Part shown: positions 1,630 through 41,179 of the stretch, piece by piece
Layout: each line of letters begins with the position of its first letter
How positions within the stretch are numbered: position 1 is the first letter of the stretch
From: Natronomonas marina
GTDB taxonomy: Archaea; Halobacteriota; Halobacteria; Halobacteriales; Haloarculaceae
DNA length: 64,000 nucleotides
Reading direction: 5' to 3'
NCBI RefSeq assembly: GCF_024298905.1
Contig: NZ_CP101154.1
Location: 2,232,001 to 2,296,000, forward strand
Position numbers and translations under genes: made by a program
The notes under the pieces: model-generated
Seen by the model: the letters and a program-made list of their open reading frames with translations, nothing else
Databases searched by the model: none
What the model was told of the DNA's origin: nothing

Positions 1630-3722
1630 TCGAGATCGTACTGCGTGATGGCACGACTTAATCTTAAAATACGGGGATCATTCTCCATCTTATTCGCTGC
1701 ATCGGCATTCATAATACGTAGACGCTGTAGTTCGCGCTCGATAAGCGAAATCTCAGCAGGGACAAGATCAGCCTCCCCTGCTTTGATTTTCTCAAGATCA
1801 ACTGGTAAAGTGACGAAGTCATAGAGATGGGCCGGTTCGTCACTTTCTGCTTCACGCAAGATACGGCCACGTCGCTGCACGGCCTCTCGCTCCGTGGTAG
1901 AACTCGTTACCAATATAGCTGAGTCACACTCAGGTACGTCGATACCCTCCGTAAGGCAATCAATAGAAACCAAGACATCAATTTTCCCACCCTCAAAATG
2001 AGTTAACAGATTCTCTTTTTCGCTGGAGGGGAGACGACCGAGGAATATCGAGACAGTCTTCGTAGTATGATCGTCGACTTCCTCGACAACCTGTTCAGTG
2101 TGCTCTTCAGTATTACAGTAAACTAAGGTCCGTGATCCTGCTTCATCAATCAACGACCTCGTAACATCCAGCTTAGCCGAACACTCCTTAACAATCCGAG
2201 CTCGGTCCATCACCTCAACCTTCAGATCCGGATGCCGATCTGAGACCTCAATCAGAGACTGGTCCTCATAGGACTTGTACGTATTATACAGGTGGGAAAT
2301 CTCGGTAGAATGATCACGGAACCGCTTCCGTTCGCTGTCCGACAAGACAACCGGGTGAATGTGGTAGTCGTACTCGCTAAGCACTTCATATTCTTCTATT
2401 GCATCTTCTATCGATATTTCGTGGATCGTGTCCCCGAAGTATTCGATAATAGCTTCATCGCCGGGATCGTCACGGAATGGCGTAGCACTCAAAGCGATTC
2501 TGGCTCGATCCGCTTCCAGATCCGGGAAGATGGTTCGGCGAAGATTAGAACCCAAGTTGTGTACCTCATCCGCAATCACTGCAATCCCCGACTCCTTAGT
2601 CGAATTCACTCGTTCGATGACGTCTTCCATCGTGCTAGGATGCATTGTTGACACCACGAACAGAGGAGCCGACCGCTCAGTAAAGAGATAGTTCTGCAAA
2701 CGTTCACGCCAATTCGTGTCTCCCAGACACCGGACGATACTGCTCTCCGGGAAGAACCGTGTGATATTGTCACCATCTACCCACTGATTGACCAAGTCCT
2801 TCGTCGGAGCAAAGACAACAACAATATCGGAGTCCTCAACCGCGTGCTGCATTGCCAAAAGCGAGGTCCAGGTTTTCCCTGTACCTGTCGCGTGATCAAG
2901 AACAAGCCGATTCCCGTTATCAAGAAATCTCTCGATAGCCTCTTCCTGATACGGCCGCAGTTCAATATCCTCACGGCCGCTTACCCCGCCACTCCCACCA
3001 GGAATAACTTCATCCCAGTCGGGCTCGGACTCCGGGGCTTTCTCGATTAGATCCCTGCGAAGCGCCTCCGGAAAATCGAACACAGCAGACTCCGGATCCT
3101 CATCATTCCATAGCTGCTCAAACTCATCTATCTGCTTATTCAGCCGCGTTTTCTCATCCCACTCATTTTCCTCAGATTCCACCCAGTTCCGGAAAAGGCT
3201 GAAGCTCTCTCGATTCTGCCGCAATGCTTTGAACGACTCATTGGGCGATCCGGTAATCCCGATTGCGTTATCCTCGTCATCTCTGAAGATAGCAACCTTC
3301 TGATGCCACTCCGCTTCTTGCTGTGTCTGCAGTCTCCCCAATTCATCGGTTACCACACCAACCTTGATCTGCAGAATATCCTCGGCAACCAGCCAAGCCA
3401 AGGCCTCAATAACCTCCTCACGGCTCCCCTGCTTGACCTTCTCCCACTCAATCCGTTCGGACAAAACCTCGTCAGAATGACCCTGATCAATCGCTTCAAT
3501 ATCCTCCTCATAAAGCACAATTCCAGGCAGAAGACGGATTGTCCCGCCGTTCTCGATGAATTCAGGCAGTCCTTCAGAAAACAGCTCCAAAACAGAAGAC
3601 GAAAAGCTGCCGGTAATCCGATCATAGTAAGTCGAGTGCTTGAGCGCAGGAATAAAGAACTCCTCTAAGATATCCACGTGCCCAGGATAGTATCCCTCCC
3701 ACTGGTAATCCCTCAGAGACAT
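1626..3722 (-). CDS. PLD-nuclease-domain SF2 helicase (restriction-type)
   Basis: A 698-aa fusion. The N-terminal domain (about 1-180) resembles a phospholipase-D superfamily nuclease, with a histidine-lysine motif (WHQKVAIF, H140/K142) followed by GSPNES near 158-163. The SF2 helicase core follows: ATGTGKT (278-284), DEVH (385-388), SAT (412-414) and QRRGRILR near 620. PLD-helicase fusions occur in several restriction and phage-defence systems, where the helicase translocates on DNA and the PLD domain cuts. It is the first gene of the overlapping three-gene operon 3722 to 1. The upstream intergenic region is shared with the divergent gene at 3874. The combination with a methylase and an SMC-like ATPase recalls helicase-methylase-ATPase (Hma-like) defence loci, but I cannot confirm the type. 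Confidence 0.85.
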   Translation of the reverse strand: MSLRDYQWEGYYPGHVDILEEFFIPALKHSTYYDRITGSFSSSVLELFSEGLPEFIENGGTIRLLPGIVLYEEDIEAIDQGHSDEVLSERIEWEKVKQGSREEVIEALAWLVAEDILQIKVGVVTDELGRLQTQQEAEWHQKVAIFRDDEDNAIGITGSPNESFKALRQNRESFSLFRNWVESEENEWDEKTRLNKQIDEFEQLWNDEDPESAVFDFPEALRRDLIEKAPESEPDWDEVIPGGSGGVSGREDIELRPYQEEAIERFLDNGNRLVLDHATGTGKTWTSLLAMQHAVEDSDIVVVFAPTKDLVNQWVDGDNITRFFPESSIVRCLGDTNWRERLQNYLFTERSAPLFVVSTMHPSTMEDVIERVNSTKESGIAVIADEVHNLGSNLRRTIFPDLEADRARIALSATPFRDDPGDEAIIEYFGDTIHEISIEDAIEEYEVLSEYDYHIHPVVLSDSERKRFRDHSTEISHLYNTYKSYEDQSLIEVSDRHPDLKVEVMDRARIVKECSAKLDVTRSLIDEAGSRTLVYCNTEEHTEQVVEEVDDHTTKTVSIFLGRLPSSEKENLLTHFEGGKIDVLVSIDCLTEGIDVPECDSAILVTSSTTEREAVQRRGRILREAESDEPAHLYDFVTLPVDLEKIKAGEADLVPAEISLIERELQRLRIMNADAANKMENDPRILRLSRAITQYDLE

Positions 3723-3822
3723 CTACCACCATAGAGTACCCGAACTACAATAGAAATTGCCCTGTTGAGATTCCAGTTATTGATCGGCTTTTGGATTACA
3801 TACCGAGATTCGACCGCCGGAG

Positions 3823-3861
3823 TATTTTTACTTTGACAGAAGCGTTACAATCTCTGGAGGT
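3823..3861 (+). promoter_or_regulatory. Putative TATA box and SD before the 3874 gene
   Basis: An AT-rich TATTTTTA (3823-3830) is followed by GGAGGT (3856-3861), 12 nt before the ATG at 3874. The divergent helicase start at 3722 shares this intergenic region. Confidence 0.4.
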
Positions 3862-3873
3862 ATTTGGACGACT

Positions 3874-4362
3874 ATGACTAATTGGGAGATGCTCTTTGAG
3901 ACAATGGAGGAAGAGAATCCCGAGTGGGGATTCGAAGAGCTGGTTCGAGAAATGATTCGTCAGCAGACAGGTTTCGACTGCGAAAAAAAGCAGGTACTGG
4001 GACGGTCAGGAAATCACTATGAGGTTGATGCCGTACCCCTGATCAAAGGGCGTCAGAACGAAAGATATCTTCACCTCATCAATATCAAGGATACCATCAT
4101 AGCAGATACCAACAACAGTACTTGGTACAATCACGTTGATCGAGCACACGCCCGGATGGATGAAGTGGGCGGAGACTTCATTCCTAAATCACTCGTTCTA
4201 CGTGAATTCAGTGATGTAGGGGATCGGTCATTCAAAGCCGAATTCGCATCAATCGGAGCCCGCATCATTGATATCGAGTCATTTGGAACCCTAATCGAGG
4301 AAATCGAACTATTCGCAGAAAATCCTGCTCTATTTACTCAGCGACCCCTCGTTGACGAATAA
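3874..4362 (+). CDS. Mrr-like restriction-endonuclease-fold protein, degenerate
   Basis: A 162-aa protein beginning with FEELVREMI and a hydrophilic lead into HYEVDAVP (D52 region), then a beta strand LHLINIKD. This spacing recalls the D...(E/Q)xK core of Mrr-type REase-fold nucleases, but the expected E/Q before x-K is Asn (NIK). It may therefore be inactive, or may serve in DNA or protein binding. The gene stands alone on the plus strand between two minus-strand operons and has its own SD. It is convergent with the MORC-methylase gene, 49 bp away. The assignment rests on pattern only. A small unrelated DNA-binding protein remains possible. Confidence 0.5.
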   Translation: MTNWEMLFETMEEENPEWGFEELVREMIRQQTGFDCEKKQVLGRSGNHYEVDAVPLIKGRQNERYLHLINIKDTIIADTNNSTWYNHVDRAHARMDEVGGDFIPKSLVLREFSDVGDRSFKAEFASIGARIIDIESFGTLIEEIELFAENPALFTQRPLVDE

Positions 4363-4411
4363 CCCTCGTCACAGGATGATTGTTGCACAAATAGGAATCA
4401 GCACCAGACGC

Positions 4412-7345
4412 CTAACTGAGGGCTAACTCGTCGATTCCAAGAATCTCTATCTGATCTGCAGTCTCATCTTTACTTCCTTCTTGACTTCCCCCGCGACGCG
4501 GATTGTCCACAGAAAGACCAACGTTGCTCACAATCGGCGGCCACTCCTTCTGGGCGAATTCCTGTCTCCATTTGTTCGTCCCGACAGCCCGTTCGACCCA
4601 ATCAGACAGGCTAATCTTCTCCTTGTAATCGTAATGCCGTCCCCCCTCGTAGACATACAGATCGCCAATAGACGACATCTCAGATTGTGTTATTGCCTGT
4701 TCAAGAAATTCGCTGGTAGAATATACGTTGATAGTCGGATTGATTCCGTAAGAGGCACTGATCCCGTCGGCTGCAATCGACCGTAGGCTTTGCTGAAGAT
4801 TGGATTGAAGTTCCTCGTTCAGATCGTCGTCAACAATATAGTAGATATCCGAGTCGATAAACCGATCCTGATCAGTTGATCGGACGTTTATCTCCCGACA
4901 AAGGTGGAAAGCAGTGTGGATAGTCAGATCATCGTGCGAACCACCATTCGACTCCTTTCCGTGTTTCCGAAGAAGTTCACGGATATGCTTTATTTGCCGT
5001 AGACCTCCGATCACCTTCGCCAGATCTTCCTGTTGCTCAGATGTCTGAGACCGAAGCCGATCCCCGTACTTCTCTGAGATCTCATTCTTGACCGAGTTAT
5101 ATGCCTCACAATACTTTGGGCTCAGCTCGAAGCCGATAGAGCGACGTCCCATAATGTCGGCCACAGCAGGTACCGTTCCCGACCCGGCAAACGGGTCGAG
5201 CGCTATCGAATCCTGTTTCGTGGTCAAGCGTAGAATTCGCTCCACAAGCGCAGTGGGGAACGGTGCTGGATGATCCAGTGAATCAATCCCGCCAAATGAA
5301 CCCTGAGGAGGGGTTACGTGCTCCCAGATATTGTCCGGGACCTTACCTCGTGGATGATATCTTTCCGGATATTCGACCCACCACTGCTTGAACTGTGTCG
5401 GATCTGCTATACGTGTCTTGTCAACGTCAAACTCGAAGGAATCGGTTTTGCTGAAGCACAGGATGTACTCGAAGACGTTCCTGAACTGGCCGTCGCTGTT
5501 GTAGGGTAAGGCCCGGGTCTTGTTCCAGATAACGATATCTTGCAGCAGCCACGAATCCGACTTACGGTTATGGGTGTAGTCACATTCACGGCAGGTGAGT
5601 TGATGATCAAGCTGGTCTAGTCGCAGCGAAGAGCCACACTCAGGACATTGATCTATCCCTGATAAGTTCTGGCAAATAGAAGCAATATCGTTAGGGAGTT
5701 GGACGATTTCACCGTTGTTCTTGAACGTGTTCACCACCACCCAGAGAGTCCCGGAGTCTTTGGTAACGTTGTATACCTGCTGGAAGACCTCTCGCATCTC
5801 CTCAAGATACTGGTCGTATGAACCGCTTTGACCCAGCTGCTCCTCCGCTTCATACCCATAATCCTTGAGGTCGAAGTACGGCGGCGAAGTCAACGTTGCA
5901 TCGACAAAACCGCCTTCATCGGGAACATCATCGAACCCTCGAAGAGTCTCCTCCAGCTTCATCGAATCCTGCTGGTGGATTTCAAAAAGGTCATCAGCAG
6001 CGGAAAGACTGGACGTATCGATAGAGGGGCCAATATCAGCCGCTCCCGAGGAGGGCTCCGTAGAGTCTACCTCTCCAGTTGTGGTGGTTTCAGTCTCCAA
6101 CTCGGACTCGTCATATGCTTCGTCATACCGCTTCCCCTCTGGCTGGTATTCGTCGCTGGAGAGGATTTCACACAGGTTCTGCCATAATGTGCTGTTGGTA
6201 TCGACGCGAACCTTTTTATTGTCCGTTGGAACCTCGTCCGTCCCTTCCTTCGGGAAGATACGGACCTCACCCCCGAAATAGTTGTACTCGTTATTCCTGA
6301 TTAGGTCGAAAAGATCAGTGAATACCGAGGTCATCAAGATACGGCCATTAGCATAGATATCGACACCCTGCTTGGACTGGTTGGGTCTGAATCTGGTTCT
6401 GAACCGTCCACTTGTAGTGAAGAGACCAGGATAGTCGTCGGCCAGCTCACTGGTCATCGCGTCGAAATCAAGCGTTCCGCGTTCGAACTCTACCTGATAC
6501 ACTGCACCGTCATCACCCTCTATTTCAAACGAATCCTCCGCGTAAGGTGTCGGCGGGTCTTGATCGTTCGACACGTACTTGGGGAAGATTGGAATAACAG
6601 GTAAAGAGCCGCTCTTCCCGTTGGTCTCATCCTCGTAGTCGATGTATATCTCGTTCTCAGAGTGAACGGAGAGCAGCCGACGGAACTTGACTCCGAGCAG
6701 CTCTCGTAGTGTCTGTGCTTTGATTTCGAGTGATTTGGCTGATGGCCAGACGTCGTTATCGAACTTGGGTCGGCTACAGCTGACGTGAACACGGGTTCCA
6801 CTTTCGTATTCACCAAGGCTGTGATTACCGATACCTAACCCATCAATCCAGGCGTCATCATCGGCGCGAGAGATAGGCAGATCCGCGGTGATAGGCCCGT
6901 CAACCCGGTATCTCTCTGATCCACTGGCCTGGGTTACCAGTGTAAACCATTCGCTCTCGGGTGTGGGATTAGCCTGCGACAGAGTTTCCTCGAACCAAGC
7001 AAGGCTGGCTTTCAGACCCCAGCCAACGTTGTTCAGGATACCGTTGGATTCCTTCTTGTTCCCGGTTCGGAAGATTTCATTCTGAAGAGCTTCCCTGCTG
7101 ATACCTGGTCCATTATCGGCAATAGTCGTTCGGACAGTGTTCTCGGTGCGTCGAAGCGTGATTACTATCTTAATCGGGGTCTCCGGATCATCGAAGTATG
7201 CCTCGTTCTTCACCACGGACGAGACCGAGTTGTCGATTAGTTCCTGGAGCGCATCCTGATACCTTTCGTGCTGCTTTGCCATTCCCGAGGCCAACGTGGA
7301 GAGTTCTACCTCGGAATCGCAGGTCGCCCTGGTCTGACGACTCAT
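4412..7345 (-). CDS. MORC-type GHKL ATPase fused to DNA methyltransferase
   Basis: A 977-aa fusion. Residues 33-115 carry GHKL ATPase motifs: N-box ELIDN (35-39), DNGPG (77-81) and GWGLKAS (108-114). A MORC-like transducer region follows (GTRVHVSC near 183-190, GVDIYANGRIL near 327-337). An acidic Thr/Ser linker (about 403-452) leads to a beta-order DNA methyltransferase with catalytic TSPPY (486-490), an inserted zinc ribbon (C567, C570, C585, C588) and the AdoMet site DPFAGSGT (717-724). TSPPY is usual for N4-cytosine or related amino-methyltransferases. The C-terminal approximately 200 residues form a shared extra domain (SIGDLYVY, PPIVSNVGL). Iyer, Abhiman and Aravind (2008) described MORC ATPases in prokaryotic restriction-modification loci. 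It is homologous along its length to the two separate proteins at 7613 and 9573. Confidence 0.88.
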   Translation of the reverse strand: MSRQTRATCDSEVELSTLASGMAKQHERYQDALQELIDNSVSSVVKNEAYFDDPETPIKIVITLRRTENTVRTTIADNGPGISREALQNEIFRTGNKKESNGILNNVGWGLKASLAWFEETLSQANPTPESEWFTLVTQASGSERYRVDGPITADLPISRADDDAWIDGLGIGNHSLGEYESGTRVHVSCSRPKFDNDVWPSAKSLEIKAQTLRELLGVKFRRLLSVHSENEIYIDYEDETNGKSGSLPVIPIFPKYVSNDQDPPTPYAEDSFEIEGDDGAVYQVEFERGTLDFDAMTSELADDYPGLFTTSGRFRTRFRPNQSKQGVDIYANGRILMTSVFTDLFDLIRNNEYNYFGGEVRIFPKEGTDEVPTDNKKVRVDTNSTLWQNLCEILSSDEYQPEGKRYDEAYDESELETETTTTGEVDSTEPSSGAADIGPSIDTSSLSAADDLFEIHQQDSMKLEETLRGFDDVPDEGGFVDATLTSPPYFDLKDYGYEAEEQLGQSGSYDQYLEEMREVFQQVYNVTKDSGTLWVVVNTFKNNGEIVQLPNDIASICQNLSGIDQCPECGSSLRLDQLDHQLTCRECDYTHNRKSDSWLLQDIVIWNKTRALPYNSDGQFRNVFEYILCFSKTDSFEFDVDKTRIADPTQFKQWWVEYPERYHPRGKVPDNIWEHVTPPQGSFGGIDSLDHPAPFPTALVERILRLTTKQDSIALDPFAGSGTVPAVADIMGRRSIGFELSPKYCEAYNSVKNEISEKYGDRLRSQTSEQQEDLAKVIGGLRQIKHIRELLRKHGKESNGGSHDDLTIHTAFHLCREINVRSTDQDRFIDSDIYYIVDDDLNEELQSNLQQSLRSIAADGISASYGINPTINVYSTSEFLEQAITQSEMSSIGDLYVYEGGRHYDYKEKISLSDWVERAVGTNKWRQEFAQKEWPPIVSNVGLSVDNPRRGGSQEGSKDETADQIEILGIDELALS

Positions 7346-7612
7346 AGTTGTCTCCGGGGAGAGGAAGATTCACCAGTTGAGAGCCGCTTAAAAGCAATCT
7401 TGTTGAGCGCCAACGCGTTATCGGAGATAAATCCGGGCTGGCGGTCCGAAGCAACCATTATAGCAGACTCAAATTGATCTAGATGTTTTAAGTTTTCTGA
7501 TCGTTCCTGACACGTTTCTCGGACCAGTTCCCTAGTTACAGTGCTGTAGGCCTGTGGATAGAGGCCAAGGGTTCTTTGATGTTATATGGGTGGAGGTTAT
7601 CTACTACGTACG
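7346..7612. other. Divergent intergenic region between the two MORC/methylase operons
   Basis: This 267-bp gap separates the two oppositely directed operons, so both promoters should lie here. No clear gene is seen. An ATG at 7586 is in frame with the methyltransferase, but the better homology-supported start is 7613. GGTGGAGGT (7588-7596) may serve as ribosome binding site for the latter at long spacing. No strong inverted repeat was noted. Confidence 0.35.
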
Positions 7613-9172
7613 ATGGGTGAGACTTCGGATTCCGTCTTTGATATCCATCAAGCTGATGCGCGGAATCTAAAATCTGAGCTCGAAAAATGGTTTGAATCAA
7701 CTGATGGAGTGGTAGATGCAATCATTACTTCGCCTCCTTACGCCGATATGCAGGACTACGGCGACCAGGAAGGACAAATAGGCGAACAACTGTATGAGGA
7801 CTTTCTAGAAGACCTACGTACCATTTTCAAGCAGTGCTACAATGTGGCCTCTGACGAGAGTACACTGTGGATTGTCACAGATACCTTTCGTCGGAACAAC
7901 CGTATTGTCCGTCCTCCGTTCGATATCGCTGATGAGTTGGAAAATCTGGAAAAGCGCCGTCTCTGTCCTGACGAAGACTGTAATGGCCGGCTTCAGCGCG
8001 ACAGAGGAACCGGAATACTGCACTGCGACATCTGTGGTGAAGAGGTCAATCCTCTCGATGAATCTTGGCAGCTGAAAGATCATCTTATATGGAACAAGCA
8101 ACGGACGCGTCCCTGGCGAAAAAAAGGCCAGCTACGGAACATCTACGAACATATCTCGATGTACGCCAAGACGGATGACTACAAATACAACGCTGACTCC
8201 ATCCGTATTCAAGATACAGACGAATTCGGCCGATGGTGGGTAAATTACCCAGAGAGATACCATCCGAAAGGAAAATTACCTGAGAACATATGGGAGTTTC
8301 CGATCCCCAAACAGGGAGAGTGGGGGCCCAAACTCAACTACCATCCTAGCCCGTTTCCGGAACCTCTCGTCGAACGAATCATCAAATTAGCCACCGACCC
8401 CGGCGACACCGTCTTAGACCCGTTTGCCGGCGTTGGATCCACACTGGCAGTGGCGGAACGACTAAACCGTCGTCCGATTGGATTCGAACTCAATGAAGAG
8501 TTCATTGAACACTATCATAATCACGTCCTACCTTCGGTGGGTAAGCAGAAGACCGAACAGCAAACCCTAGTTGATGAGGACTCTAGACACAATCTCGAAT
8601 ACCTGATCTGGACACTTCGAATTCACAAATACGCTTTCCGACTACAAAGAGAACTGGTTAGCAACGAAGAAATCGGCATCCAACGGGAAGATTTCAACTC
8701 TGTGTTGGCGGTGACTGACCCGGAAACTATCGGTACCGATACCCGGCCCCAGACACAGCTGTACTACCTCGGCACCGACAAAGTCCGAAATCTCAAAGAC
8801 ACATTCGATCAAGCAGCAGAAAACTTGATCTCTGCAAACAGGGGGTCTGGAGACTATTACGAAGTTGACTTCGAACTAAACGCATATCCCGTCGAGGACT
8901 GGTTCGAAGGGACTGTTTCCCAAGTACTCGATCTCTCTTCTATTGATCATCTATATGTCTATTCTGACGGTGTCCACCACTGGTATCAAGCCGAAATCAC
9001 GTTCGACCAGTGGAAATCGATGGTCGCTAACAGCGAGTGGAAACGATACCAGAGTACTCACTGGACACCCCTTGTCTCGAATCTTGGTATCCAAGTTGAA
9101 AATCCTCAACAGGAGGTCGAGAAGGTTGATAAACACCAGACGGTACTTAGAAATTTTAATGAGGATGTATGA
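7613..9172 (+). CDS. Stand-alone DNA methyltransferase, paralogue of the fused one
   Basis: About 519 aa, or 528 if started at 7586. Motif order is that of beta-class amino-methyltransferases: TSPPY (39-43), an inserted zinc ribbon (C118, C123, C138, C141), then DPFAGVGS (269-276). The protein aligns with the methyltransferase half of the 4412-7345 fusion almost end to end. Shared blocks include WWVNYPERYHPKGKLP, the region before the AdoMet motif, and the C-terminal block SIDHLYVY...TPLVSNLGI. It probably modifies host DNA for self/non-self discrimination; the target base and site are unknown. It is the first gene of a plus-strand operon continuing with a MORC ATPase, McrB-like and McrC-like genes, but about 400 bp separate it from the next start, so a second promoter is possible. 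Confidence 0.88.
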   Translation: MGETSDSVFDIHQADARNLKSELEKWFESTDGVVDAIITSPPYADMQDYGDQEGQIGEQLYEDFLEDLRTIFKQCYNVASDESTLWIVTDTFRRNNRIVRPPFDIADELENLEKRRLCPDEDCNGRLQRDRGTGILHCDICGEEVNPLDESWQLKDHLIWNKQRTRPWRKKGQLRNIYEHISMYAKTDDYKYNADSIRIQDTDEFGRWWVNYPERYHPKGKLPENIWEFPIPKQGEWGPKLNYHPSPFPEPLVERIIKLATDPGDTVLDPFAGVGSTLAVAERLNRRPIGFELNEEFIEHYHNHVLPSVGKQKTEQQTLVDEDSRHNLEYLIWTLRIHKYAFRLQRELVSNEEIGIQREDFNSVLAVTDPETIGTDTRPQTQLYYLGTDKVRNLKDTFDQAAENLISANRGSGDYYEVDFELNAYPVEDWFEGTVSQVLDLSSIDHLYVYSDGVHHWYQAEITFDQWKSMVANSEWKRYQSTHWTPLVSNLGIQVENPQQEVEKVDKHQTVLRNFNEDV

Positions 9173-36944: not shown

Positions 36945-38052
36945 ATGCACAGGGATAGACTCGAACCAATCACTCCAGAGGAAGCCGAAGAGATGTACCT
37001 GGACGAGCGCAAGGAAGACGCCAGGTATGCCACAATTCAGACAATCAAGGACGGGGTCGGGCTCTTCGTTGAGTGGACTAATGAATCAGGTATCGACAAT
37101 ATGAATAATATTCGGGGGCGGGAATTGCGCCGATTCAAGAACTGGTGTCAGGATACGTCCGATAATAGCACGGTTAGTCTTAATGGAATTATGAGCGTCT
37201 TGCGGCGGTTTCTCGTCTTCTGTGTCGAGATCGAGGCGGTCTACTCTGACGTTCCGAACAAAACCCCTGTTCCAAACGTGCCTGATGATGAGGGTGTTTC
37301 CAATGACAAACCGAGCGACGAGGAAGTCAACGCAGCACTTGACTTTCTCGAAGCGCATGAACCGTGCTCGCGTCGCCATGTTGAGTTTCGGCTCATCAAA
37401 GAACTCGGGAACCGGGTCGGCGCTGTTCGCGCGATTGACAAGGATGACGTGATCGACAAGGATGATGAAGAAGGTCCTGCGATTCGACTTCGGCATCGTC
37501 CGGAGAAGGAGTTCGAAAATGAAAGAGGGACGCCGCTCAAAAACGGGACAGATGGACAGCGACATCAGAACATCTCACGGGAGCTGGCGGACCTCATCAA
37601 GCGGTACGTGAACAGCCCTCAGCGCCCCGATGTAGAAGACAAGTTTGGAAGAGAACCACTATTGACGACAGAAAACGGCCGTCCCGAAATAACGACGATC
37701 CGGCGAGACCTGTACAAACTCACCCGTCCCTGCGAATACACGGGTGAGTGCCCACACGATCGTGAGATCGCGTCGTGTACGGCGACGATCAGTCGACACG
37801 CATCCGAGTGTCCGTCGAGCCATAGTCCCCATCCGCTTCGACGGTGGTCGATAGAACACCAGATCGAGAGTGGGGTGTCCAAGGAGCTGCTCACCGATCG
37901 GGTGGATGTCTCGGTTCCGGTACTGAACGAACACTACGACACGCGAACTGAGGAGCGAAGGCGGGAGCACCGGTTAGAAGTGCTGGAGAAAATCTTCGAC
38001 GGCTACGGTGATCCTGAGGCAACGATAGATGCCGGTGTCCTTGTCAATATGT
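36945..38052 (+). pseudogene. Tyrosine recombinase gene, 5' part, cut by ISH8-type element
   Basis: Encodes the catalytic part of a haloarchaeal integrase: TNESGIDNMNNIRGRELRRF (core-binding), LGNRVGAVRAID (Arg), HPLRRWSIEHQ (HxxR) and VLNEHYDTRTEE (Tyr). The frame is interrupted at 38053 by the IS. Reading through into the IS gives a few extra codons (NMSFVLV) and a stop at 38067-38069. The downstream part 39505-39884 continues the same frame. The first 1108 nt plus 380 nt sum to a 496-codon frame including stop, so the native protein would be 495 aa. The catalytic residues are all in the 5' part, so a truncated enzyme could still act. Confidence 0.8.
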
Positions 38053-39494
38053 CATTCGTTCTAGTTTAGGGGCGGTCAAAGCCGAACTCACCCCGTTCAA
38101 CCTGCTCACGTAACCGATTTCTGTGTGGATTTGGATTTCGTGATGCCCACAGCAACAGCTCGTCCAAATCCGGCAGTTCGTAGCCCAACTCAACCATGAG
38201 ATACAGCTGGATCAGATGAGCGTGGCGTTCGACGGCTAGCGAACAGCGACGACGAGGGAGCCGCGACGCCGACTCGTCGGCGTCTGCGGCGGCTTCGACC
38301 TCACGCTGTCTTGCCTCAATCGACCGTAACTCATCCACGATCACACGACTCATCAACAACGAAATCGCCGCCATGATGATCAGTGCCTCGATGATGTAGG
38401 CGTCGGTCGTGTTGATCTCGTCCAAGCCGAACCGCGATTTCAATTCCTTGAACAGCAGTTCGACCTCCCAGCGCGCCCGATAGAGCTGCGCGATATCGGG
38501 CGCGCTGTACTCCTCACGCGCTAGATTCGTTAGATACAGATGGTACTCTTCGCTCTCCTCGTTGCGCAGCCCGACCAGTCGAAACGTCCGGGTCGCGCTG
38601 GCGCCCGACCCTCGCTTGCGCTCGAACGAGAGCGTGATGCGGACGTCGATTTCCTGTCGCTGCAGGTCGTCGAGGACGGCCTGCAGCGACTCTCCTTCCA
38701 GCGGAATGCTGTTGCCTCGCCACGTTCGCAGTTCCTCGACGATCTCGAAGTTTGCGTTGTCCTTGACTCGGGAGACGAACCAGCCGCCGTTCTGGTCGAT
38801 TCGGTCGAACAACCAGAAGTCGTAGAAGCCTAAATCAAGCAGGATGAGGGCGTCAGCTACCCACTCGCCGGTGGGTAGCTGACTCCGTTCATGAGTAGTG
38901 CCGTCAGTTGTGCGGAACCGTGTTGGAAGACCTGTCGAGAGTGACTCCGTGAGGTGGAGTTTCAGTTCAGCTTGGTCTTCGCCAGTTGCTGCGTAGATAT
39001 CAGCGGCGTCTTGGTACAGCGAAACGATAGTTGCGTCGGCGATGAGGACGTCTCGAAATCGTTCGAGACGTCCGTTCAACTCGGTTCGTCCGGTATCGAG
39101 ATTCTCGATGGCGTCATCGAGAATCTCTCGAAGGAGTGCAACGAAGCCCGGTTCGAACCAGTCGTGGAATGCCGCGTAAGAGAGTTCGTCGCAGTCAGCC
39201 ATCTCGACGTAGCGGTCGAGAAATGCTTGCAGGGAGCGGTCTGAGCCAGCGGCGAAGCCAAACGAGAGCGTGTAAAACAGCGCAACGATGTCGAACTTCC
39301 GCTCACGCTCAACGAGATTCGTTGCGCGAGCGCGCTCGCGCAACTCATCAGAGGGAAACGCTCTTTGAATTCGGTCAACAACTACCGAGTCCGGTGGAGA
39401 GTACACACTTCCCACCGGGTTCCTCAACCGGGTAGTTGCGACGATATCTAATCAACAGATAGCAACAGGATTCTCCACTAAACTAGAACGGATG
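38053..39494 (-). mobile_element. IS4-family (ISH8 group) insertion sequence, 1442 bp
   Basis: Ends are CATTCGTTCTAGTTTAG (left) and CATCCGTTCTAGTTTAG read from the right end, one mismatch in 17 bp. The flanking 10-bp direct repeat GTCAATATGT is at 38043-38052 and 39495-39504. Length, end sequence and 10-bp duplication match the ISH8 group. It carries one transposase gene on the minus strand. Intact ends suggest that it may still be mobile. Confidence 0.9.
38066..39427 (-). CDS. IS4-family transposase (ISH8 group)
   Basis: 453 aa, DDE fold. VLIADATIVSLYQ holds the first aspartate and ALILLDLGFYDFWLFDRI the second. YRARWEVELLFKELK gives the Y-R-E-K signature of IS4 transposases. Full length, without frameshift. 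Confidence 0.9.
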   Translation of the reverse strand: MRNPVGSVYSPPDSVVVDRIQRAFPSDELRERARATNLVERERKFDIVALFYTLSFGFAAGSDRSLQAFLDRYVEMADCDELSYAAFHDWFEPGFVALLREILDDAIENLDTGRTELNGRLERFRDVLIADATIVSLYQDAADIYAATGEDQAELKLHLTESLSTGLPTRFRTTDGTTHERSQLPTGEWVADALILLDLGFYDFWLFDRIDQNGGWFVSRVKDNANFEIVEELRTWRGNSIPLEGESLQAVLDDLQRQEIDVRITLSFERKRGSGASATRTFRLVGLRNEESEEYHLYLTNLAREEYSAPDIAQLYRARWEVELLFKELKSRFGLDEINTTDAYIIEALIIMAAISLLMSRVIVDELRSIEARQREVEAAADADESASRLPRRRCSLAVERHAHLIQLYLMVELGYELPDLDELLLWASRNPNPHRNRLREQVERGEFGFDRP

Positions 39495-39951: not shown

Positions 39952-40950
39952 TCAGATCTCATCGAGGTAGCCGCGGCGTTGTTCCAGTTTCACCTCCGCG
40001 GATCGTTTGTCGTAGTGCTTGTCGAGTACTTTCCGACTCACATTCATACGATCACTGACAACTTCGATCGGCACGTCTTCCGTGAGGAAGTGCGTGATAC
40101 TCCCACGACGAATGGCGTGCGGGCTAACTGCTTCGGGACACTTCCTCTCGATGCCCTGGTTGCAGTCAGGACACGGGTCGTCAAGATAGCACGGCGCGGT
40201 GATCTTGTTGATTTTTCGACGGATCGTTCCTCGGCACATCCGTCCGTGCTCTGTTGTCAGCAGAGGCTTCCTGCCGTACTCGTCGGTGACGTCGTACCGG
40301 AACGTATCGACGTGGTCTTTGAGTAGCTCTGTCACTTCGGCAGACATCGCTACGAATCGTTCGCCGCTCTTTCCGTTTTTCAACGTCGTACCTTGATCAG
40401 GTCGATGGACGAGTTCGACGCGTTTCTCGTCGAAGTCTACATCGGTCAGATCGACCGAGTAGGCAGCTCCCATGCGCATTCCGGTTTCCCAAAGGAATGC
40501 GAGTAGGACGTGGTGCATTGAGGCGTACTCGTACCGCGAGAGGTGCGCGAGAAGCTTCTCTGCTCGCTCCGCCTCAAGGATTTTTTCGCTACTCTGTTGG
40601 CTACGCCGGACGCGCGGAATCATCAACTTCGAATAGAGGTTCTCCGGAACCGCCTCTACCGAGCCGGCCCACTTGAGAAAGACGCGGAAGCCCGACATCA
40701 TATTCTTCATCGTGAGCGCGTTGACGTCATCGTCGTCAGCCAGCCAGAGCCGGTACCGCTGGATGTCCCGGCCCGACAGGTCGTTCAGGTTGTCAATATC
40801 CTCCTCGTCACACCACTCCAGGAAGTGTTTCATCCGGTAGCGGTGATTCTGGACGGTCGAGTCTGTACAGTCTGTTGCCTTGTGTTCGAGGAACAGCTTG
40901 GTCCCCGTCTCGGGATCAAGCGGTTCGAGATCGTCTTTGTCCGTGGTCAT
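39952..40950 (-). CDS. Tyrosine recombinase/integrase near the island boundary
   Basis: 332 aa from the ATG at 40950; an upstream ATG at 41043 would add 31 residues. Core-binding part: STVQNHRYRMKHFLEWCDEEDIDNL. Catalytic domain: WETGMRMGAAYSVDL (Arg), PHAIRRGSITHFLTED (HxxR) and VLDKHYDKRSAE (Tyr). A zinc-like cluster CYLDDPCPDC/CPEA is inserted, as in many haloarchaeal integrases. It lies 80 bp from tRNA-end-like repeats at 41029 and 41166. This makes it the likely integrase of the island. Confidence 0.85.
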   Translation of the reverse strand: MTTDKDDLEPLDPETGTKLFLEHKATDCTDSTVQNHRYRMKHFLEWCDEEDIDNLNDLSGRDIQRYRLWLADDDDVNALTMKNMMSGFRVFLKWAGSVEAVPENLYSKLMIPRVRRSQQSSEKILEAERAEKLLAHLSRYEYASMHHVLLAFLWETGMRMGAAYSVDLTDVDFDEKRVELVHRPDQGTTLKNGKSGERFVAMSAEVTELLKDHVDTFRYDVTDEYGRKPLLTTEHGRMCRGTIRRKINKITAPCYLDDPCPDCNQGIERKCPEAVSPHAIRRGSITHFLTEDVPIEVVSDRMNVSRKVLDKHYDKRSAEVKLEQRRGYLDEI

Positions 40951-41028
40951 CGTTGTCACGGACCGCCTGTAGAAGGGCGCTCTACCGCGTGAACGGCGGC
41001 GAAGGGTCAGTACGTACCTCGCGCTTAG

Positions 41029-41179
41029 TCCGCCCCGACCCATTTCCGTGCCGCAACGCGACGAGCGTAGCGAGGAGCCTTCGGCACGGAAATCGTCCGA
41101 AGGATTCGAACCCGGGAAGTCGCAGCGCCGAGCGAAGTGAGGCGACCGTCTTCCTTCGGTTCGAATCCGCCCCGACCCA
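41029..41179. repeat. tRNA-3'-end-like attachment repeats
   Basis: TCCGCCCCGACCCA occurs at 41029-41042 and at 41166-41179. The second copy extends to GGTTCGAATCC (from 41158), the T-loop plus acceptor end of a tRNA-like sequence. GGATTCGAACCC (41102-41113) is another T-loop-like piece in reverse. A perfect 12-bp inverted repeat ATTTCCGTGCCG/CGGCACGGAAAT sits at 41042-41053 and 41082-41093. No complete tRNA gene is present. This looks like one or several scars of integration at a tRNA gene. Confidence 0.6.

Follow-up and report, generated by a model that had tools for sequence, protein, structure and literature searches.

Hairpin units ending in tRNA tails: a seemingly new family at tRNA genes across the haloarchaeal order

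We analysed a 64,000-nucleotide (nt) stretch of the Natronomonas marina genome (RefSeq assembly GCF_024298905.1, contig NZ_CP101154.1, positions 2,232,001 to 2,296,000; here G000:C1:2232001-2296000, called the window), in which a genomic island inserted at a transfer RNA (tRNA) gene ends beside a short non-coding unit that is itself built partly of tRNA sequence. A first-pass annotation, made from the sequence alone, had placed the right edge of an island at this point, citing a tRNA end repeated 137 bp apart with a T-loop at the second copy, a third, inverted T-loop-like piece, a 12-bp perfect inverted repeat, an integrase gene close by and DNA richer in guanine and cytosine (GC) beyond, and each of these is found at the locus (Table 1). 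The 14-nt repeat TCCGCCCCGACCCA occurs at 41029-41042 and again at 41166-41179. The second copy is joined to the T-loop GGTTCGAATCC (41158-41168), of which GGATTCGAACC is the exact inverse. The integrase open reading frame (ORF) reads leftwards from a likely start at 40950, and its longest-ORF start, 41043, is the edge of the first TCCGCCCCGACCCA copy. The GC content rises rightwards at 41 kb from 0.57 to 0.64-0.71.

The same annotation had proposed that an intact tRNA gene with this 3' end, and a matching left copy of the repeat, be sought outside the window, and both are there. The intact tRNA-Val(CAC) gene lies 44 kb to the left of the window (G000:C1:2187635-2187708), and its 3' end is the left copy (G000:C1:2187686-2187708, 23 nt identical). 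Between this 3' end and the first TCCGCCCCGACCCA copy, 14-15 nt are common, and the distance from core to core is 85,334 bp. The island runs from an intact tRNA gene on the left to a repeat of that gene's 3' sequence on the right, where the integrase gene also lies, and is thus an ordinary tRNA-integrated element of ~85.3 kb at tRNA-Val(CAC), with its right end at 41029.

The second TCCGCCCCGACCCA copy has a different origin from the one that had been suggested for it. A further island end was considered for it and rejected, given the structure of the 137-bp piece and its recurrence, as a structured non-coding unit, behind many different tRNA genes. The suggested explanation, repeated integration at one tRNA gene, is half right: additions at tRNA genes are indeed repeated, but they are mainly short cassettes and not islands. 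The 137-nt stretch folds better than its shuffled versions (z = -4.2, with none of 200 shuffles equally good), and both arms of its first hairpin are altered in step in the relative G013 (L346, by eye). In the genome of the window the same unit stands behind tRNA-Gly(GCC) and tRNA-Arg(CCT), with T-arm letters that match each unit's own tRNA. We infer that the unit at 41043-41179 once stood directly behind tRNA-Val and was displaced by 85 kb when the island entered. The motif GAGCGNAGCGAG is not generally enriched as a repeat across the 4.0-Mb genome (51 copies, vs 43 for the reversed pattern).

Table 1. Features at the right end of the island and in the adjoining unit (window coordinates)
Feature	Position	Strand	Remarks
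tRNA-tail cassette (type I unit), 137 bp, non-coding	41043..41179	+	model match 41102-41168, 96.3 bits
hairpin 1, 12-bp stem, contains GAGCGTAGCGAG	41042..41093	+	perfect inverted repeat 41042-41053 / 41082-41093
inverted T-arm GGATTCGAACC	41102..41112	+	11 nt, 100% inverse of GGTTCGAATCC
inner bulged hairpin GGAAGTCG-CAG-CGCC-GAGCGAAGTGA-GGCG-AC-CGTCTTCC	41113..41157	+	spacers CG and TTC
direct copy of tRNA-Val positions 52-73 (T-arm and acceptor 3' strand)	41158..41179	+	closes the unit
attR TCCGCCCCGACCCA	41029..41042	+	repeats tRNA-Val positions 60-73; the ~85.3-kb island has its right end here
tyrosine integrase of the island, 332 amino acids (aa)	39952..40950	-	ORF possibly from 41043; Pfam PF00589
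CAGTACGTACC (CAGTACGT)	41008..41018	+	faces ACGTACTG at L005 1218-1225, inside the island's left end; by eye

The units share one layout. Each starts after position 73 of the tRNA with a leader that often contains hairpin 1, followed by the 11-nt inverted T-arm, a spacer (usually CT), and an inner part that consists of the stem strand NNAG(T/A)CG, CAG, a variable terminal stem, AC, the returning strand CGTCTNN and a second spacer (usually TCC). The unit ends in a copy of positions 52-73 of its own tRNA, and in an array the next unit begins after position 73 of the preceding tail copy. The core of the inner hairpin, AGWCGCAGC..GACCGTCT, is conserved across families and anticodons. Hairpin 1 is a weaker feature than this second hairpin: it is variable, and 37 of 96 leader segments have z < -2 (median z -1.66, mononucleotide shuffles). 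From 134 tail copies, 116 of which have an inverted T-arm, we used 108 with a core of at most 105 nt for anatomy, apex and DNA folding. Over positions 52-73 the identity between tRNA and copy is 0.96-1.00, falling to 0.08-0.66 over 12 positions on each side (up to 106 units); as hits were selected on positions 52-73, only the flanking drop is informative. In all, 212 units were counted at 143 distinct tRNA loci with 30 anticodons, in fetched stretches many of which were fetched for bearing a unit.

Because the anatomy set was found by similarity to the unit's own tRNA, the match there is by construction. The covariance-model scan (L036-L065, below) and a check in 40 further genomes of the order are free of this selection bias. 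For the latter we took one high-scoring listed match of a second model per genome (a training sequence is present at 2 of the 40 loci), and all 40 matches have a tRNA on the same strand 34-230 nt upstream, across 21 anticodons, so no island lies between tRNA and unit. The 22-nt tails are identical to those of their own tRNA in 25 of 40 cases and within 2 differences in 35, the other five differing mainly in the acceptor part. This part lies outside the model, and in 37 hits with at most four tail mismatches it differs from the unit's own tRNA at 0.43 of 11 nt, vs 6.33 for tRNAs with other anticodons. Upstream of tRNAs, the scan that counted the 212 units gave unit-like matches at only 3 of 262. 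Two loci stand out by their form. At tRNA-Thr(GGT) of L364 (G325), a unit 202 nt behind the gene has a tail that is off by 7 of 22 nt, and the T-arm of this tRNA, GATTCAAATTC, is unusual. In Halobacteriales archaeon QS_4_69_31 (L193, ~280-430), a unit without the first tail and hairpin 1 splits tRNA-Asp(GTC) where the T-arm begins; this could reflect a deletion, an intermediate state or faulty assembly.

Nearly all sampled genomes of the order have the family, yet it occupies a minority of tRNA genes. A covariance model built from three units of the window's genome matches in 54 of 60 genomes, the window's own included, and 28 of the 30 loci L036-L065 hold tRNA genes of many kinds; of the other two, L056 has a tRNA-Gly overlooked in the first scan and L047 has no tRNA in its stretch. 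The second model matches in 87 of 91 sampled genomes of the haloarchaeal order, counting the window's own and those used to build the model, and has no match in 301 genomes from the rest of the phylum (16 shown and 285 unlisted, the latter assumed to lie outside the order since the list is sorted by kinship). In this phylum scan, genomes were at least 80% complete and up to 11 candidates were scored in each. Two genomes were surveyed by tRNA: 7 of 43 tRNA matches in one and 9 of 39 in the other are followed by a tail copy within 800 nt, and none of 90 tRNA predictions has such a copy upstream; the tRNAs that bear units are partly different in the two. Beyond those counts, the window's genome has the island-displaced unit of tRNA-Val(CAC) and a decayed tail at tRNA-Arg(CCT). 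A pattern scan of named genomes returned at least 120 loci, and the 50 with a tail-matched unit among the matches listed all belong to Halobacteria. No bacterial locus with a model match is among the matches listed (at least 120), the other model-matching loci being haloarchaeal too. Viral carriage was considered and, on 49 IMG/VR pattern matches, rejected: none of these holds a unit (below), and the lone tail-scan match, L240, sits in a phage tRNA cluster. A known RNA family was likewise rejected, as no Rfam cut-off is reached and the region itself gives four weak matches far under the cut-offs; matches at gathering score in four loci are only to tRNAs, one ribosomal leader and one small RNA elsewhere in the stretch.

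The fold is well marked by paired changes. Among 102 distinct sequences, 92.6% of the cells are paired and 16 of 23 pairs have two-sided changes; none of 500 shuffles reaches any of five measures, and with partners slid by 1-3 columns the pairing is 29-61%. The alignment draws its 106 matches from the window plus 81 of the 92 unit-bearing loci, includes three antisense rows of units already present (L040 twice, L041), and was fitted to the model, which favours pairing. In stem 2, G.U combinations account for 6 of 675 pairs, leaving out the usually T.T pair, vs 54 of 985 in tRNA stems (acceptor and T stems, 87 tRNAs at these loci; p 1.4e-7). In 75 of 100 cases one particular pair of stem 2 does not form. 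The apex of the inner hairpin has the form GA-xy-GNA-yx-GA in 64 of 108 units, and the same form with any triloop in 80 of 108 (shuffles: mean 2.5, maximum 9). DNA mini-hairpins in which two G-C pairs carry a GNA or GNNA loop are described as exceptionally stable, GCGAAGC having a melting temperature of 78 C (PMC4686876). When folded with DNA energies, 103 of 108 units form eight or more of the 11 T-arm pairs. On balance, we take these sequence patterns to reflect a folded DNA strand that either is under selection or gave rise to them.

Units are often stacked. The 143 loci hold 89 single units, 40 double, 13 triple and one fourfold array, and tails are spaced 94-188 nt apart in 62 of 69 cases. 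In 54 arrays of at least two units, the tail nearest the tRNA fits it better in 24 and the last tail in 4, with 26 ties (p 1.8e-4); mean tail mismatches are 0.28 for the nearest and 1.46 for the last. Such polarity is the expected trace of addition at the tRNA, and growth at the tRNA would explain it. Copy number varies among relatives. At orthologous tRNA-Val(CAC) genes in 18 genomes of the same genus, 0, 1, 2 or at least 3 units were counted by a tail scan with the window's tRNA-Val and reading by eye: eight genomes have no units, G003, G004, G007, G017 and G019 have one, G013 has two, G011 and G014 have three, and G002 has only an acceptor-like scrap. In G015, three units, the third with a decayed tail, are followed by a 5.5-kb insert and then at least one more unit. 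One array has a look of its own: at tRNA-Lys(TTT) of L087 (G003), four tail copies lie 152-156 nt apart and some are near-identical, unlike the mixed arrays elsewhere.

Comparison of the inner cores indicates how units are related. The nearest core comes from the same anticodon in 25 of 110 cases, with 5 expected and each named contig taken as a separate genome, so descent at one tRNA is visible. Most nearest cores come from a different tRNA. A case that would fit transfer between tRNAs is seen in the assembly QS_1_68_20, where the units of Arg-CCG and Glu-TTC are alike in 61 of 63 inner nt and 52 of 81 leader nt, and each tail is that of its own tRNA. General spread between tRNAs within a genome was rejected as not above chance.

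A second form, the type II unit, consists of an acceptor end in inverted orientation, a hairpin whose loop is often of TTCG type, and a 13-nt acceptor copy in direct orientation. Type II units lie downstream of 22 of 259 tRNAs and upstream of none; acceptor-only copies of any kind number 39 downstream and 4 upstream. Examples are found ~203-256 nt downstream of tRNA-Ala in L040 and in L084, L094, L374, L383 and others. The type II tail resembles the 14-nt core used by the island, and the same core marks the far end of the G015 insert, which lies between tail copies (L345 ~2186-7728). This 5.5-kb piece encodes an XhoI-like restriction enzyme, an N4/N6 DNA methylase, a SIR2-like protein and a GmrSD-type (GmrSD_N) protein; among its 42 frames of at least 60 aa there is no relative of the window's integrase, and no integrase was seen. 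Since the piece sits between tails and carries the core, tails of an array can act as insertion points for cargo.

In shape and arrangement the unit is attC-like. As in integron arrays, tandem units end in a bulged hairpin of imperfect symmetry, with an unpaired spacer and bulge, whose base recreates a double-stranded site; the array is anchored at one end, and one array, that of G015, holds a gene-bearing piece. Here, however, the anchor is a tRNA gene, the hairpin base is a tRNA T-arm, and the units, to judge from their spacing, are mostly too short for genes. The attC R-box has the consensus RYYYAAC/GTTRRRY, which the T-arm GGTTCRAATCC and its inverse do not fit (by eye), and the integrase of this locus scores 31.6 bits against the integron integrase model TIGR02249, whose cut-off is 265. 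With neither an R-box that fits nor an integron-type integrase at this locus, the unit is best regarded as something other than an integron cassette. A paper on archaeal integrons does not have 'halobacter', 'haloarchae' or 'tRNA' in its main text (PMC9668308).

Other known systems offer partial likenesses. Haloarchaeal tRNA-integrated islands and proviruses with Xer/SNJ2-type integrases are described as duplicating the 3' tRNA end (PMC8371274, PMC3119063), and the 85-kb island, with its 14-15-nt core, is one of these; the 137-bp unit, in contrast, is gene-free, has an inverted T-arm and a conserved hairpin, and belongs to a family that occurs without an island between unit and tRNA. The integrase of the island, in its 363-aa form, matches the Pfam family Phage_integrase (PF00589, E 6.3e-13) and SAM-like N-domains; the 332-aa form matches Xer-type NCBIfam models with scores under their cut-offs. 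A SAM-like N-domain together with Phage_integrase, and a 13-14-bp core at the tRNA 3' end, are SNJ2-type traits. The SNJ2 system has the accessory proteins Orf2/Orf3. The two domains are given for the XerA, XerC and pNOB8 families as well, so SNJ2 is not singled out, at least by the relevant part of that account (PMC8371274). On the island side of the att core, the facing inverted repeats CAGTACGT and ACGTACTG are possible integrase sites. Just within the island lie an IS4-family transposase and an adjoining ORF (window 38066-39427, minus strand, and 36945-38069, plus strand); the transposase matches NF033592 with 279.5 bits (cut-off 115), and the ORF beside it has a match to a SAM-like integrase N-domain under the cut-off. 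CRISPR (clustered regularly interspaced short palindromic repeat) arrays and casposons likewise duplicate a repeat with each new unit and grow at one end, but CRISPR arrays hold varied spacers where the units here hold related hairpins. Repetitive extragenic palindromes and miniature inverted-repeat transposable elements (MITEs) are also short, non-coding repeats with dyad symmetry, but the units differ from them in keeping to tRNA genes and in fitting the particular tRNA at each. Terminal inverted repeats of the MITE or insertion-sequence type were not seen by eye in printed units, for which no scan was made.

Our tentative reading, held with somewhat less than even confidence, is that the units form DNA-level cassette arrays which grow at tRNA genes and are attC-like in operation without being integrons. 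We infer all three of its parts: a hairpin of single-stranded DNA, growth at the tRNA, and handling by a recombinase. When a single strand is free, the cassette end would fold so that inverted and direct T-arms pair as the 11-bp duplex of the tRNA gene itself; above this duplex would stand the asymmetric spacer, then the second stem with its usual T.T mismatch, the CAG/AC bulge and often a GNA mini-hairpin. The folded strand could then substitute for the tRNA's own recombination site, as attC does for the double-stranded core in integrons, and units would be gained (and lost) at the tRNA-proximal end through an enzyme that acts in trans and either exchanges or copies strands. The tRNA, or a tail copy in an array, would also be the integration site of islands like that of 85 kb. 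It is possible, if doubtful, that this amounts to an integron-like haloarchaeal system anchored at tRNA genes, with hairpins that recreate the T-arm and tails re-templated from the target tRNA; a stacking of gene-free, and sometimes gene-bearing (e.g. defence), cassettes at the tRNA-proximal end is to be taken with the same doubt. Several observations weigh against this cassette-array reading, the failed R-box fit among them. No enzyme was identified, and a link to integrase dosage was rejected, as PF00589 counts do not track the units (4-14 in five unit-free genomes, 2 in one genome with at least 11 units). None of 49 IMG/VR pattern matches holds a unit (model match E <= 0.01). G.U pairs in the T-arm stem (37 of 1063) are not clearly below those of tRNA stems, and a tetraloop motif of GNRA or TTCG type, such as RNA favours, is present in 22 of 108 inner hairpins. 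Core likeness across anticodons within a genome is at chance (2 of 115 pairs reach 0.9, vs 1.5 expected), which leaves individual cases as the evidence for movement between tRNA genes, and the mean likeness of cores at different tRNAs is 0.47 within a genome and 0.54 between genomes. Gene conversion by the nearby tRNA could also produce the polarity of the arrays, paired changes can arise without selection when templates are switched at quasi-palindromes, and correction by template switching could imitate part of the DNA-like signal.

These last points lead to a rival that dispenses with a dedicated enzyme, and that we consider unlikely: forks would stall at the tRNA, prime by folding back and switch templates at the T-arm, giving quasi-palindromic units whose arms are those of the local tRNA, after which slippage and gene conversion would multiply and homogenise the product. 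The match of inverted arm and tail to the nearby tRNA would follow from such a replication accident, and the lack of a correlated enzyme, the excess of nearest cores with the same anticodon, the chance-level likeness across anticodons and the resemblance of some arrays (L053, L087, L046) to plain tandem duplications all speak for it. Slippage alone, however, cannot create an inner hairpin conserved across families and anticodons, and the unit is restricted to one order in the sample. The strong, covarying fold, the RNA-type tetraloops in some hairpins and the position downstream on the sense strand (40 of 40, against so few upstream) would also suit an element that is co-transcribed with the tRNA and has a role in 3' processing, termination or control; we think this distinctly unlikely, given the few G.U pairs in stem 2, the usual apex that fits DNA, the orthologous tRNAs with 0 to at least 3 units, the small share of tRNAs with a nearby tail copy in the two surveyed genomes and the failure to match any Rfam family. 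The idea of the first-pass annotation, in its general form, is that the units are ordinary att remnants, the residue of tRNA-targeting islands that excised imperfectly or integrated in tandem. A 22-nt tRNA duplication has been published for a Haloquadratum prophage (PMC3119063), islands use the same tRNA and a 14-nt core, and type II units carry a 13-nt acceptor tail. Random scraps, however, would not leave an order-wide structured core with covarying arms, which makes this explanation improbable. Even more improbable, to the point of being hard to credit, is an insertion of transposon type (Cas1/casposase-like or of a related kind) that duplicates a long target site, with the tRNA as leader and the tail as the copied target. 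The edges of the duplicated tail are sharp, and the tails closest to the tRNA match it best, as they would in an array with growth at one end, but terminal inverted repeats were not seen by eye and the inverted T-arm belongs to the unit itself.

We found no prior description of the family in open-licence papers, whose supplements were outside our reach, so its novelty is provisional. The closest printed trace, as far as the relevant part of that report goes, is in Haloferax gibbonsii, for which 11 partial tRNAs are given, several directly adjoining the full gene (PMC7921747); these may be the same units, and are there only counted. A structured family present in 87 of 91 genomes of one order thus seems to have stayed nameless. 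If its members are indeed recombination sites made of folded DNA, the logic of attC would extend beyond integrons, and tRNA genes would serve as loading docks for DNA cassettes; if replication accidents are their source instead, template switching at tRNA genes would have left a natural archive in these loci. That islands in haloarchaea have tRNA genes as hot spots could be due in part to the spare integration cores which the arrays provide.
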